Source: a virus
DNA: 20,608 nt
Strand: one strand, 5' to 3'
IMG/VR virus record: IMGVR_UViG_3300025276_000272
Span: 1 to 20,608 of that record
A model generated the notes under the pieces. That model did not search any database. It saw only the letters and a program-made list of their open reading frames with translations, and was not told the origin of the DNA. Below are positions 6,952-19,514 of this stretch, piece after piece; position 1 is the stretch's first letter; every line of letters starts with the position of its first letter. A program made the translations under genes and the position numbers.

Positions 6952-7398
6952 TTATCTAACCAATCGATTGAAGTGTGTAGGTCTCTTTTCTGATCTTTCT
7001 ATTGTACCACTGCTATCGAAATCGTATTTGACTCCTTGTCTTAAGATTTTGTCGAATTCTGTTTTGTATTCTTGCCTGTAGTAGGCCATTTTTTCTCTGA
7101 ATACATCACCTTCAGGTGAGAACGTACTTAAACGCGGGTAAACAAAAAAGCCCAGTACATGATATACTGCACATCTTGTCCACTGGCTGTCTACAAGTAA
7201 GCTGTCTTCGAATTCTGCATCATTGGGTGTTGTTATGTCGTACATGGCTGATCCAGCACGAGGCCACCAATCTATTTCAATGTCTCTTTTTACGTCTGCA
7301 GTTGATAGTGTGTGGAGATCCGAGTAATCTTGGATTCCGTAATTTTTGATATCCGGTTCGTATTGTTCGATATCGGAATCAGTTGTAAAGTTAGCCAC
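6952..7398 (-). CDS. Head-tail connector protein
   Basis: 148 residues, first gene after the capsid terminator. It starts with GTG at 7398, chosen because AGGAGG lies eight bases upstream. The N-terminus FTTDSDIEQYEPDIKNYGIQDYSDLHTLS, then helices DVKRDIEIDWWPRAG and DSQWTRCAVYHVLGFFVYPRL, and a helix FREKMAYYRQEYKTEFDKILRQG, give an all-helical adaptor with an N-terminal 'l...dp.l...i..~~~' segment as in head-tail adaptor proteins. The C-terminal 'YDFDSSGTIERSEKR' is typical of these connectors in marine phages. It would bind under the portal and open the tail path. A promoter-like element and a small hairpin lie in front of it. Confidence 0.7.
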   Translation of the reverse strand: MANFTTDSDIEQYEPDIKNYGIQDYSDLHTLSTADVKRDIEIDWWPRAGSAMYDITTPNDAEFEDSLLVDSQWTRCAVYHVLGFFVYPRLSTFSPEGDVFREKMAYYRQEYKTEFDKILRQGVKYDFDSSGTIERSEKRPTHFNRLVR

Positions 7399-7447
7399 TT
7401 AAAAGTCCTCCTGTTAAAGTGTGTTGCAAGTCCTTCTTGCTAAAGTT

Positions 7448-7455
7448 TATTTATT
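7448..7455 (-). promoter_or_regulatory. Candidate late-promoter element AATAAATA before connector gene
   Basis: On the coding strand the block reads CAATAAATA. It lies 50 bases before the GTG start at 7398 and 28 bases past the capsid terminator, so it could restart transcription for the tail operon. Between element and start lies a perfect five-pair hairpin with loop AAGGA (GCAAG at 7440-7436, CTTGC at 7430-7426). No -35 box of sigma70 type is seen at the right distance. The same element is found before four other genes. Confidence 0.4.
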
Positions 7456-7482
7456 GCGTGTGCAACAGTGTTAAGCACTAAT

Positions 7483-7512
7483 AAAAAAGCCCCAAGTTTC
7501 CTCAGGGCTTTT
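7483..7512 (-). terminator. Rho-independent terminator after the major capsid gene
   Basis: Read on the coding strand, AAAAGCCCTGAG pairs with CTTGGGGCTTTT around a GAAA tetraloop (7512-7501, loop 7500-7497, 7496-7485). This is a twelve-pair stem with two G-U pairs, followed by a T run. It lies 40 bases after the capsid stop at 7553. It separates head genes from tail genes and should raise capsid transcript level against the tail genes. The clearest terminator in the window. Confidence 0.92.
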
Positions 7513-15796: not shown

Positions 15797-18700
15797 TTAT
15801 TCAGTTTCAATGAATGTTTTGCCTGAAAGTTTTTCAACTTCTTTAATCATTGCTTCCATATTAACTCTAACAGTTTTGCCTGTTATTGTGTTCTTAGAAT
15901 AGTATTCCCAATCACCTGCAGTGTTGTGGGGAGATATTTTAGTAATGTTACCTGCTTCATCAACAACGTGTACTTCTGATGAACCTGAATCATCTTTGGC
16001 AAATATCCAACCAAAGCCATCACCGTGTGTGGGATCACCTGTGTTGTCTAATCTTATTGCACCCATTCTTGATTGTGCCGCCGCGTCTTCTGAGTAGAAT
16101 GCGTATCTGTTGGTTGCCGCATTATCCTCAGCACCTTCGTTGTAGTATGCGTAGATGTTTGTGATAACATCACCTGATGTCTTGTAGTATGAAGCACGAT
16201 AGTTGTATGCATTATCAACGGTTGCAGTCCCTGATGCACTTCCGTCGTCATCTGCCGAGTAAATGGTTGAGTTGGCACCATACACAGCATTAATTGTTAG
16301 ATCACTGGCAAGGTTGCTGGCTGTTGAAACATAGATACCTGCCTGTGCATCAAACCCTCTTAAAGTTTTAAGTGTGGACGCACTGCCACCACTGTTCATC
16401 GCTGTGGAACCAAATGTTAATGCCACTGGCCCTCTTGAAAAACCTGATCGTGTGTAAGAGAAAGCGTTCATGTCTGTGGTGTTGGTCACCAACATGGTTC
16501 TCTGCCTGAAGTTGGAGTTTGAACTTGAACTTGCTGTGATAAGTTTTGTGTCTTGGTTAACCACATTCATATAGTTTCTGCCTGTGGTGTTGGCATTTAC
16601 TTCTTGGTTGGTGTTGATTACAACACCTCTGATGTTACTTGTGCCTCCAAAGAAGTCTGTGTATTTTGTTCCTTCAAATATGCTGGAATCATCCGTGGAT
16701 AATTCAATAAGTCCTGTGCCGTTTGTGCCTATTACAAGATTGGCATTTGAATCATTAGTTGAAATTGTGTTGTCTGTGATTGTGACACCGTCTAAATTTG
16801 AAGCACCTGTAACACCTAGTGTGGTTGAAACGGTTGCCGCTCCTGTGACTGCAAGTGTTGATCCATTAAATGTTAAATTTGCTTCACCATTCATTGCGTC
16901 AGCACCTGTGGCTGTTACAATTCTGTTGTCTGAACCGTTGGTTAAAAAGTCTGATACATCAACTGATACAGCATCTGCCGCCACATCAATACCTGTGCCT
17001 GCTATAACATTAAGTGTGACATCTCCTGTTGTGCCACCACCTGTCATACCTGCACCTGCTACCACTGAAGTTATGTCTCCACCACCGCCAGCGGCGGCGT
17101 CAACATATGCTTTGATTGATTGCTGTGTTGCAAGTTTTACGTCTGAATTAGAAGACATGTCGTCTTCATCCAGTATGCCTGTGACTGTTGCTCCGTCACC
17201 TGCCACTGATAAATTTTCTAATACCACTGTGCCTGAACCGTTTGCATTTATTTCTAAGTTTGCATTTGAGGCATTTGTAGTTACGGTGTTGTCTATGATT
17301 CTAACTCCGTCTATATCTGCAAAATTTTCTACGAGTAATGTTCCACCATCATCATCAGAGCTACTATCTTTAAGAACAGATAATTTATTACCATCAAAAG
17401 TTAACAGGGAAGCACCTTCTATATTATTTGCACTTCTGACAGTGCAAAGGTAATCTTGTGTTCCATCGGATGACAATGTACATTTCGTGTCTGCATATGT
17501 TTTGATTGATTGTTGTGTGGCAAGTTGTGTGTCACTGTTAGTAGCCATATCATCTTCGTCTAATACTGCTGTTCCACTTACACCTAAAGTAAGCACAGGA
17601 CTTGTTATTTCTTTGTTTGTTAATGTTTGGCTACCTGCGTTCAATGTTACTACGTTTGCGTCTACTTGTACGTCATTGGCATTGGCTGTGATACCTGTGC
17701 CACCAATAACATTAAGTGTTACATCGCCTGTTGTGCCACCACCTGTCATACCTGCACCTGCTACCACTGAAGTAACGTCTCCAACTTGTCCGTTAATGGT
17801 TACTACACCTGCTGAATCTGTTGCTGTCGTTATACCAGTGCCACCTTGTATGTAAACTGTGCCACCTTCTGCTATATCAACAGTTGCTGAGTCATCACCA
17901 ACCACTTTGAATCCTTGTCCTGTGTGGGCATCAACATATGCTTTAATTGATTGTTGTGTGGCAAGTTGTGAGTCACTGTTGGTAGACATATCATCTTCGT
18001 CTAATACTGCTGTGCCACTTACACCTGTTTTAAGAACTGCTGATGTTAGTGTTTTGTTTGTTAATTCTTGTGAACCTGCCAGTGTTGTGACTGTTGAGTC
18101 TATGGCTATATCATTAGCGTTGGCTGTGATACCTGTGCCACCCACAACATTTAGTGTTGCATCACCTGTTGTTGCACCGCCTGTTAGCCCTGCTCCTGCT
18201 ACCACTGATGTGATATCTCCAGTTGCATTGATTGTTACAACTCCTGCTGAATCTGTTGATGTGGTTACGTTTGTACCACCCTGTACGTAAAGTGTGCCAC
18301 CGGTAGCTATGTCAACACTGGCTGAATCGTCTCCAGCTACTTTAAAACCTCCTGCCCCTGCTGATGCATCCACGTATGCTTTGATGGCTTTGGCTGAAGC
18401 AAGTGTTGTGTCTGTGCCTGCCACTGCGTTTAGGTCAGTGTCTAGCACACCTGATTTTAAATTGGCAACTTCTATGTTGGTTAATGAGTTACCTGTGCCA
18501 TCTGCATCAAATGTTTTGTTTGTGAATGTTAATGTATCACTGGCAATGTTGGCATCTTGTGCATCTACATATGCTTTTACACTTTGTTGACTTGGTGGTC
18601 TTGTTGATGAATTTGTACTAAAACTGTCTTCATCTATAAGACTTAATGTTGTGTCTGTGGAATTGATTGTTACAACTCCTGCTGAATCTGTTGATGTGGT

Positions 18701-18910
18701 TACGTTGTCTCCACCTTGAATGTATATGGTGTCACCTGCACCTACTTGTATAGTGGCTGAATCATCCGCCGCTATGCCAAAACTTTGGTCTCGTAGGTTA
18801 ATAAAATTTGAATCTAATTGATTGTGTGTTAGTTGTGATCCTTTTGCTAGGTTATCACTGGATACTGTTGAAGCACTTATGCCTCTGGTTGTAAGTTTGG
18901 CTTTAGCCAT
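15797..18910 (-). CDS. Large repetitive tail fibre protein
   Basis: 1037 residues. Residues 1-640 are built of repeated blocks: GVVTIN near 80, 223 and 367; 'GDITSVVAGAGLTGG' segments; LTNKTL; and QQS-KAYVD near 111, 178 (variant), 323, 470 and 602. Glycine and threonine are rich and cysteine nearly absent, as in trimeric fibre shafts. Residues 640-900 are less regular. The last 90 (GDGFGWIFAKDDSGSSEVHV, ISPHNTAGDWEYYSKNT, GKTVRVNMEAMIKEVEKLSG) are the C-terminal module shared by many marine phage fibres. It likely binds the host surface. The start ATG 18910 has GGAG eight bases upstream, and that site can be masked by a hairpin. Two pairs of exact direct repeats of 45 and 47 bases lie in the gene. 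Confidence 0.88.
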   Translation of the reverse strand: MAKAKLTTRGISASTVSSDNLAKGSQLTHNQLDSNFINLRDQSFGIAADDSATIQVGAGDTIYIQGGDNVTTSTDSAGVVTINSTDTTLSLIDEDSFSTNSSTRPPSQQSVKAYVDAQDANIASDTLTFTNKTFDADGTGNSLTNIEVANLKSGVLDTDLNAVAGTDTTLASAKAIKAYVDASAGAGGFKVAGDDSASVDIATGGTLYVQGGTNVTTSTDSAGVVTINATGDITSVVAGAGLTGGATTGDATLNVVGGTGITANANDIAIDSTVTTLAGSQELTNKTLTSAVLKTGVSGTAVLDEDDMSTNSDSQLATQQSIKAYVDAHTGQGFKVVGDDSATVDIAEGGTVYIQGGTGITTATDSAGVVTINGQVGDVTSVVAGAGMTGGGTTGDVTLNVIGGTGITANANDVQVDANVVTLNAGSQTLTNKEITSPVLTLGVSGTAVLDEDDMATNSDTQLATQQSIKTYADTKCTLSSDGTQDYLCTVRSANNIEGASLLTFDGNKLSVLKDSSSDDDGGTLLVENFADIDGVRIIDNTVTTNASNANLEINANGSGTVVLENLSVAGDGATVTGILDEDDMSSNSDVKLATQQSIKAYVDAAAGGGGDITSVVAGAGMTGGGTTGDVTLNVIAGTGIDVAADAVSVDVSDFLTNGSDNRIVTATGADAMNGEANLTFNGSTLAVTGAATVSTTLGVTGASNLDGVTITDNTISTNDSNANLVIGTNGTGLIELSTDDSSIFEGTKYTDFFGGTSNIRGVVINTNQEVNANTTGRNYMNVVNQDTKLITASSSSNSNFRQRTMLVTNTTDMNAFSYTRSGFSRGPVALTFGSTAMNSGGSASTLKTLRGFDAQAGIYVSTASNLASDLTINAVYGANSTIYSADDDGSASGTATVDNAYNYRASYYKTSGDVITNIYAYYNEGAEDNAATNRYAFYSEDAAAQSRMGAIRLDNTGDPTHGDGFGWIFAKDDSGSSEVHVVDEAGNITKISPHNTAGDWEYYSKNTITGKTVRVNMEAMIKEVEKLSGKTFIETE
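17025..17773 (-). repeat. Exact 47-base direct repeat pair in the fibre gene
   Basis: 17025-17071 and 17727-17773 are identical over 47 bases, spacing 702. They encode the TSVVAGAGMTGGGTTG part of the shaft block. The spacing is a multiple of three, so recombination between the copies would delete 234 residues in frame. Confidence 0.85.
18227..18706 (-). repeat. Exact 45-base direct repeat pair in the fibre gene
   Basis: 18227-18271 and 18662-18706 are identical over 45 bases, spacing 435, a multiple of three. They encode NVTTSTDSAGVVTIN, the turn of the shaft block. An in-frame loss of 145 residues could follow from recombination. Confidence 0.85.
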
Positions 18911-18915
18911 TGTTT

Positions 18916-18970
18916 AATCTCCAATTGTTAATGTCTTTAACTCCGCAAGTATTTATTGGAGTTGGAGATT
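18916..18970 (-). promoter_or_regulatory. Hairpin that can mask the fibre ribosome binding site
   Basis: AATCTCCAA (18970-18962) is perfectly complementary over nine bases to TTGGAGATT (18924-18916), which contains the fibre Shine-Dalgarno GGAG (18922-18919). The loop is 37 bases. An inner stem AACTCC/GGAGTT (18963-18958 with 18944-18939) competes for two bases. A message coming from upstream genes would carry both arms; one starting inside the loop would lack the first arm. Confidence 0.55.
18950..18957 (-). promoter_or_regulatory. Candidate late-promoter element AATAAATA before the fibre gene
   Basis: On the coding strand it reads CAATAAATA, 40 bases before ATG 18910 and inside the loop of the masking hairpin. 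If the start point lies six or seven bases after the box, as at T4 late promoters, the message begins near 18943 and lacks the arm that covers the ribosome site. Confidence 0.45.
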
Positions 18971-18989
18971 ACTATATGTACGTTTTAAA

Positions 18990-19514
18990 CTACTTCTTCT
19001 TGTATCTAGGCCAAACGTTTTTGAATGTTTCCAGTATGTCTGGTATAAGATCAGGATTTTGTTTCAAATACTCCTGTTGTGCATCTGCATCTCTGTTGAT
19101 GTCCATCTGTCTCTTTACTTCTTGTGATGACACCATGGGTTCTTCATCATCTGCATTGGTTGGATCCAACACAGGACACCAAGGCAACTCCTTGTCCATC
19201 TTTTTAAGTCCAGCTTTTAACTTTAACAGTGCTTTGCACAGTTTCATCAGTTGTGCTTCAGTTATGTCCTTGTTTCTGCCACCTCTGTGATGAGGTCCAA
19301 CATTGTCTGCCACACCTGGTATAACTTTTTCATCATGATCATTCCAATCCGGCAATAGATTTTGTTCCTGCAACAACTGTTTGATGTGTTCTAGGTCACA
19401 ACAATAGCTGTACAGTTTGCTTCTCTCTTCTGGTGACATGGTCAGCATCACTGCGGCTTTGTTTTTGCCAGTAGCAGTCCAGTAACCATTTTTTAGTGTG
19501 TGCAATCTGCTCAT
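18990..19514 (-). CDS. Unknown protein, 174 residues
   Basis: Start ATG 19514 overlaps the previous stop as ATGA. Segments: SRLHTLKNGYWTATGKNKAA at the N-terminus; a helix SPEERSKLYSYCCDLEHIKQ; a linker with VGPHHRGGRNKDITEAQLMK; a lysine-rich helix LCKALLKLKAGLKKMDKELP; and an end LKQNPDLIPDILETFKNVWP. No fold is recognised. Basic helices and the 'HHRGGRNKD' turn would fit nucleic acid or protein binding. It is the last gene before the fibre and the candidate promoter gap, thus the end of an upstream transcription unit. Confidence 0.55.
   Translation of the reverse strand: MSRLHTLKNGYWTATGKNKAAVMLTMSPEERSKLYSYCCDLEHIKQLLQEQNLLPDWNDHDEKVIPGVADNVGPHHRGGRNKDITEAQLMKLCKALLKLKAGLKKMDKELPWCPVLDPTNADDEEPMVSSQEVKRQMDINRDADAQQEYLKQNPDLIPDILETFKNVWPRYKKK

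Follow-up and report, generated by a model that had tools for sequence, protein, structure and literature searches.

Is the tail fibre-like gene of a small uncultured phage translated from every RNA that runs into it, or is its ribosome-binding site opened only on RNAs that start late in infection within its own leader? The question is raised by the minus strand of the window (i.e., the whole stretch of 20,608 nucleotides that was analysed), where a repeat-containing ORF of 1037 aa (15797..18910, minus strand) starts with an ATG at 18910, matches PHROG tail fiber/tail families in a profile search and has an N-terminus that is orthologous in the IMG/VR records L002-L008. A same-strand gene of 174 aa (18990-19514, minus, with an ortholog in L081) lies 79 nt upstream, and the sequence of the fibre leader is TAATCTCCAACTCCAATAAATACTTGCGGAGTTAAAGACATTAACAATTGGAGATTAAACAATG. 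A repeat search returned a 10-nt inverted repeat, 100% complementary, with its arms 37 nt apart. The Shine-Dalgarno (SD) GGAG (18919-18922, minus, 12 nt before the ATG) falls fully within the 3′ arm TTGGAGATTA (18915-18924, minus), which is paired in both the MFE and the centroid structures with the anti-SD 5′ arm TAATCTCCAA (18962-18971, minus). In the loop lies AATAAATA (18950-18957, minus), an element that resembles a T4-type late promoter and is conserved in five relatives of the fibre gene. The first-pass annotation had described a perfect repeat of nine bases (18916-18924 / 18962-18970), which is indeed perfect and is really 10 bp long; its placement of the SD opposite a segment 37 nt upstream, with the element in the loop, agrees with our coordinates, while its description of the fibre as the "most abundant" repeat protein of the phage found no support.

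We think that the leader is probably a translational timing switch with two promoters, in the style of T4. Transcripts from upstream (early sigma-70-type RNA or other read-through) would include the 5′ arm, fold into a stem of 10-14 bp and hide the fibre SD, and little fibre would be made. Late in infection, RNA polymerase would start at AATAAATA inside the hairpin, and the late RNA, beginning about 34 nt before the ATG and lacking the 5′ arm at 18962-18971, would be translated. The short RNA was modelled according to the T4 rule as starting 6 nt past the element, with a predicted start at 18944 (minus) and the element at -13 to -6. We infer the promoter use of AATAAATA, the RNA start, the early read-through, the effect on translation and the recognising protein; the observed arrangement is confirmed, and its interpretation as a timing switch is partly supported.

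The computed folds behave in the way that the first-pass annotation had predicted, with the long RNA burying GGAG and the short one exposing it. Between the read-through and the element-started RNA, the probability that the SD is unpaired climbs from 0.00 to 0.66 for the window. The five relatives show a rise as well, with decreasing strength (0.00 to 0.70 in L002, 0.00 to 0.63 in L004, 0.00 to 0.75 in L006, 0.12 to 0.53 in L003, and 0.38 to 0.90 in L007). The cost of opening the SD is 6.4 kcal/mol in the long and 1.0 kcal/mol in the short form of the window, as compared to 11-13 and 1.0-1.4 kcal/mol in L002/L004/L006. In the short-form fold, a small 5′ hairpin (GTTAA-AGACA-TTAAC, 18927-18941, minus) is placed before the SD. 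When 43 leaders with NATAAATA were ranked by the gain in SD exposure, fibre leaders took the top four places. The same calculation was run on T4 leaders as positives, for which the long/short probabilities of an unpaired SD were 0.00/0.84 for e, 0.00/0.68 for 49, 0.00/0.63 for I-TevI and 0.00/0.83 for I-TevII, while segB (0.00/0.25) and soc (0.33/0.79) showed the expected behaviour only in part; T4 49 and I-TevI likewise use AATAAATA.

Any CTCC near any GGAG will pair. The complementarity could be a chance match of the purine-rich SD with a CT-rich stretch beside the promoter, and near relatives could have inherited it by common descent. We screened 148 leaders with an SD, taken from the window and from nine related records, for exact helices of 6 bp or more that cover the SD; only four leaders had one, and the three longest of these helices (10, 9, and 7 bp) all belong to fibre leaders. 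We also swapped the 32-nt 5′ arm for shuffled sequence (mononucleotide shuffling, 500 shuffles, floor p = 0.002), and obtained p = 0.018 for the window and the floor value of 0.002 for L002, L004, and L006, whose stems are all 14 bp long. Taken individually, the most diverged pair of relatives, L003 (p = 0.07) and L007 (p = 0.22), did not reach significance, and the evidence is hence strong for close relatives but weak for these two distant ones. The 68-nt fibre leader folds with z = -3.4, a value equalled by one of 200 shuffles, and in a 121-nt region (z = -1.6) the stem is still present in the MFE and centroid structures. As the upstream sequence of the window is otherwise very different from that of the L002 types, and as the helix counts and the leader z-score agree with the earlier judgement that a coincidence was unlikely, we regard chance as improbable, the least probable of the explanations weighed here.

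A DNA search with the leader gave no match among 50,697 phage records. Of the fibre relatives, five keep the arrangement: three have the 14-bp stem, one has two-sided changes, and one has a weak stem. In L002, L004, and L006, GTTTRATCTCCAAT stands opposite ATTGGAGATTAAAC over 14 bp. In L003, a 6-nt bulge separates GTGGT from CTCCAAT; these stand opposite ATTGGAG and ACCAC, and three pairs differ from the others on both sides. For the window and L003, covariation was judged in a structural alignment from which the 6-nt bulge had been taken out manually, L007 being excluded, and 92.9% of the cells were paired, falling to 29-54% once slid. This covariation, which involves a single lineage and needs the hand-set bulge, was matched by 32 of 500 shuffles. 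The stem of L007 is broken, with TAAAT/ATTTA and CTCT/AGAG at best. A lack of compensatory changes, which the first-pass annotation had named as a refuting result, was not borne out, although the compensation comes from one lineage only. To judge from sequence, the changed yet complementary outer arm of L003 speaks for RNA pairing over a DNA site, again in that single lineage. A DNA operator was rejected as a candidate, since the outer sequence of L003 changes while the complementarity stays.

The alignment of all six leaders also brought forward another pairing. RNAalifold favours a short CTCC/GGAG helix over the SD stem, which is explained by the outer arms sitting in different alignment columns, and this 4-bp helix is unbroken in 6/6 sequences. 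In the window, a tandem duplication of CTCCAA (18956-18967, minus), revealed by leader comparison with L002/L004/L006, makes a competing pairing of 5-6 bp with the first GGAG (18941-18944) possible. What matters could then be the small hairpin surrounding the promoter, or the DNA as such, and SD masking would be a by-product. The conservation of this helix stops at 4 bp, however, while complementarity to the SD reaches 14, 14, 14, 10, 5+7, and about 5+3 bp in sequences that differ from each other, and in the window MFE the first-GGAG pairing forms together with the outer stem. We consider this explanation quite unlikely, marginally ahead of chance, and SD masking by the outer stem remains our preferred function.

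The element was also considered in its own right. In the window AATAAATA is not rare by itself (two sites vs. 1.5 expected), and its significance is only group-wide. In ten related records, some of them near-duplicates, all 33 occurrences are on the gene strand. In a set in which repeated contexts were collapsed, the strand ratio is 30:0, and 26 of 35 sites (74%) lie 12-62 nt ahead of SD-bearing starts, as compared to 9.7% of positions. In the terminase relatives, NATAAATA is distributed 102:14 by strand in all. The sites precede the post-capsid gene, the scaffold-like gene, HNH genes and fibre genes; some overlap a sigma-70 -10 hexamer instead (TATAATAAATA), and one recurrent site lies within the end of a fibre gene, in a stretch of conserved coding sequence; the sites are therefore not all independent evidence. 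Strand and position mark AATAAATA as a genuine promoter-like motif within the group. Import of the promoter together with the fibre gene of a T4-like phage was rejected, since one such event does not account for a motif that precedes many of the group's structural genes.

The second AATAAATA of the window (7448-7455, minus) precedes the gene at 6952-7398 and follows an intrinsic-terminator-like sequence (7482-7510, minus) directly behind the major capsid gene. This site shows no SD masking; a small hairpin, AGCAAGAAGGACTTGC, follows it (window 7400-7460), and both site and hairpin are conserved in L152, L181, L183, L186, L187, and L189. Similar small 5′ hairpins were seen in other late leaders (TTGTTATAACAA, TTGTAATTACAA, and GTGGTAATCCTGCCAC).

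A masked SD has a rationale if RNAs enter the fibre gene from upstream. In G002, the fibre strand carries, about 1.8 kb before the fibre (L151 5239-5211), a sigma-70 promoter that matches TTGACA-17-TATAAT at 12/12 positions; no terminator-like site separates the two on this strand, and L154 has a close version of the promoter. The window stops short of the matching position, so that the promoter itself is outside, and its minus strand has no terminator-like site from the upstream gene to 20608. The (near-)consensus promoter in two relatives makes read-through plausible, in which case the rationale for SD masking would match that of T4 e. Near-perfect sigma-70 promoters were located at L151:5239-5211, 6544-6516, and 6639-6612 and at about 13484 in L150; in several of them the -10 hexamer overlaps AATAAATA (TATAATAAATA), and these are possibly dual early/late promoters.

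The same layout of same-strand, tightly packed upstream genes with no terminator would also suit a static hairpin, which adjusts or lowers fibre translation, or serves in coupling or RNA stability, on RNA that all comes from upstream, with AATAAATA being no start site, and such a hairpin would fit the lack of a gp55 match in complete relatives (see below). Against it, AATAAATA is identical in all six fibre leaders despite variable flanks, and its bias in strand and position is extreme throughout the group; moreover, an always-masked fibre would be poorly made unless its translation were coupled across the gap of 79 nt. We hold the static hairpin to be unlikely, although it is the strongest of the alternatives to the timing switch.

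A second hairpin case was found in the leaders of HNH genes in G009, G010, and L172, where the element forms part of the 5′ arm, and the 3′ arm holds both SD and ATG. These leaders fold with z-scores of -7.2 (G009) and -6.6 (G010), the L172 leader folds too, and the three sequences at hand include one two-sided change (A-U to U-A). The hairpins of these HNH endonuclease-like genes are located at L159:2375-2440 (G009) and around 1470-1512 in L170 and L172. In T4, homing endonucleases are under regulation of such a kind (PMC2988022).

In order to see what could read the element, we turned to complete relatives, as the window itself is a fragment. G009 (L159+L164), taken as complete because of its 77-bp terminal repeat, and L162 (the circular DSL-LC06) both have complete genomes, about 30-32 kb in size, and carry the T4-type late motif. 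Profiles of gp55 (phrog_234) and gp45 (phrog_223), which matched all positive controls (T4, S-PM2, and HTVC008M) and can miss distant relatives, gave no match in G008, G009, DSL-LC06 or the other related records. No replication genes were recognised in the scanned parts of G009 or in the annotation of DSL-LC06. A Sigma70_r2 (PF04542) match in G002 was below the cut-off, contained stops, and was taken as chance. A terminase-based host search found no relative in 84,980 genomes, and a search of a literature collection for satellites with T4-type late promoters, or for such promoters in small siphophages, returned nothing. The logic of T4 e and soc invoked by the first-pass annotation thus applies to the layout and the computed signature; with gp55 and gp45 not found in the complete relatives, the likeness to T4 is one of layout and not of known machinery. 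A different factor may serve the group, or the factor of a co-infecting T4-like phage may be borrowed. More tentatively, and less likely than not, these genomes could represent a siphovirus-like family of about 30 kb with T4-type late promoters, some of them hairpin-gated, and with neither the T4 late sigma and clamp nor recognised replication genes. As a hypothesis only, phages of this family might encode their own virions yet depend on a T4-like helper, with the gp55 system of the helper reading their promoters; alternatively, they could carry an unrecognised late factor.

The nearest named terminase relatives (48-50%) are DSL-LC06 (OR003941, proposed 'Nanhuiviridae', PMC10611076) and the pelagiphages HTVC202P and HTVC111P. 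NATAAATA is distributed 7:1 by strand in DSL-LC06 and without strand bias in HTVC202P and HTVC111P, in which no fibre hairpin was found. The late promoters of cyanomyoviruses (NATAAATA, S-PM2; PMC2984593) have the same octamer, before structural genes and only on the coding strand; cyanomyoviruses possess g55, g33, and g45, whereas the complete relatives of the window gave no gp55/gp45 match. The closest parallels are T4 e, soc, 49, and I-TevI (also I-TevII and segB, as well as Aeh1 mobE), which share with the fibre leader a late promoter inside an SD-masking hairpin. According to reviews, the first four are masked in long RNAs, and the T4 late RNAs, where worked out, have a free SD and miss the 5′ strand (PMC3014915, PMC2988022); by computation, the fibre leader loses its masking upon a late start in a similar manner. 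It differs from the T4 cases in several respects: the gene under control encodes a tail fibre, the phage is small and of non-T4 type, the loop is longer and has the element at its margin, gp55 and gp45 had no match, and the switch of the window is predicted by computation. This kind of switch is hence already known from T4 and its kin, and what is new is its setting, i.e., the fibre gene of an uncultured small marine phage. It raises a testable question, namely which factor recognises T4-type late promoters where the phage seemingly lacks the T4 late sigma, and it would carry a regulatory design of T4-like myoviruses over to a fibre gene and to uncultured marine phages of small size.
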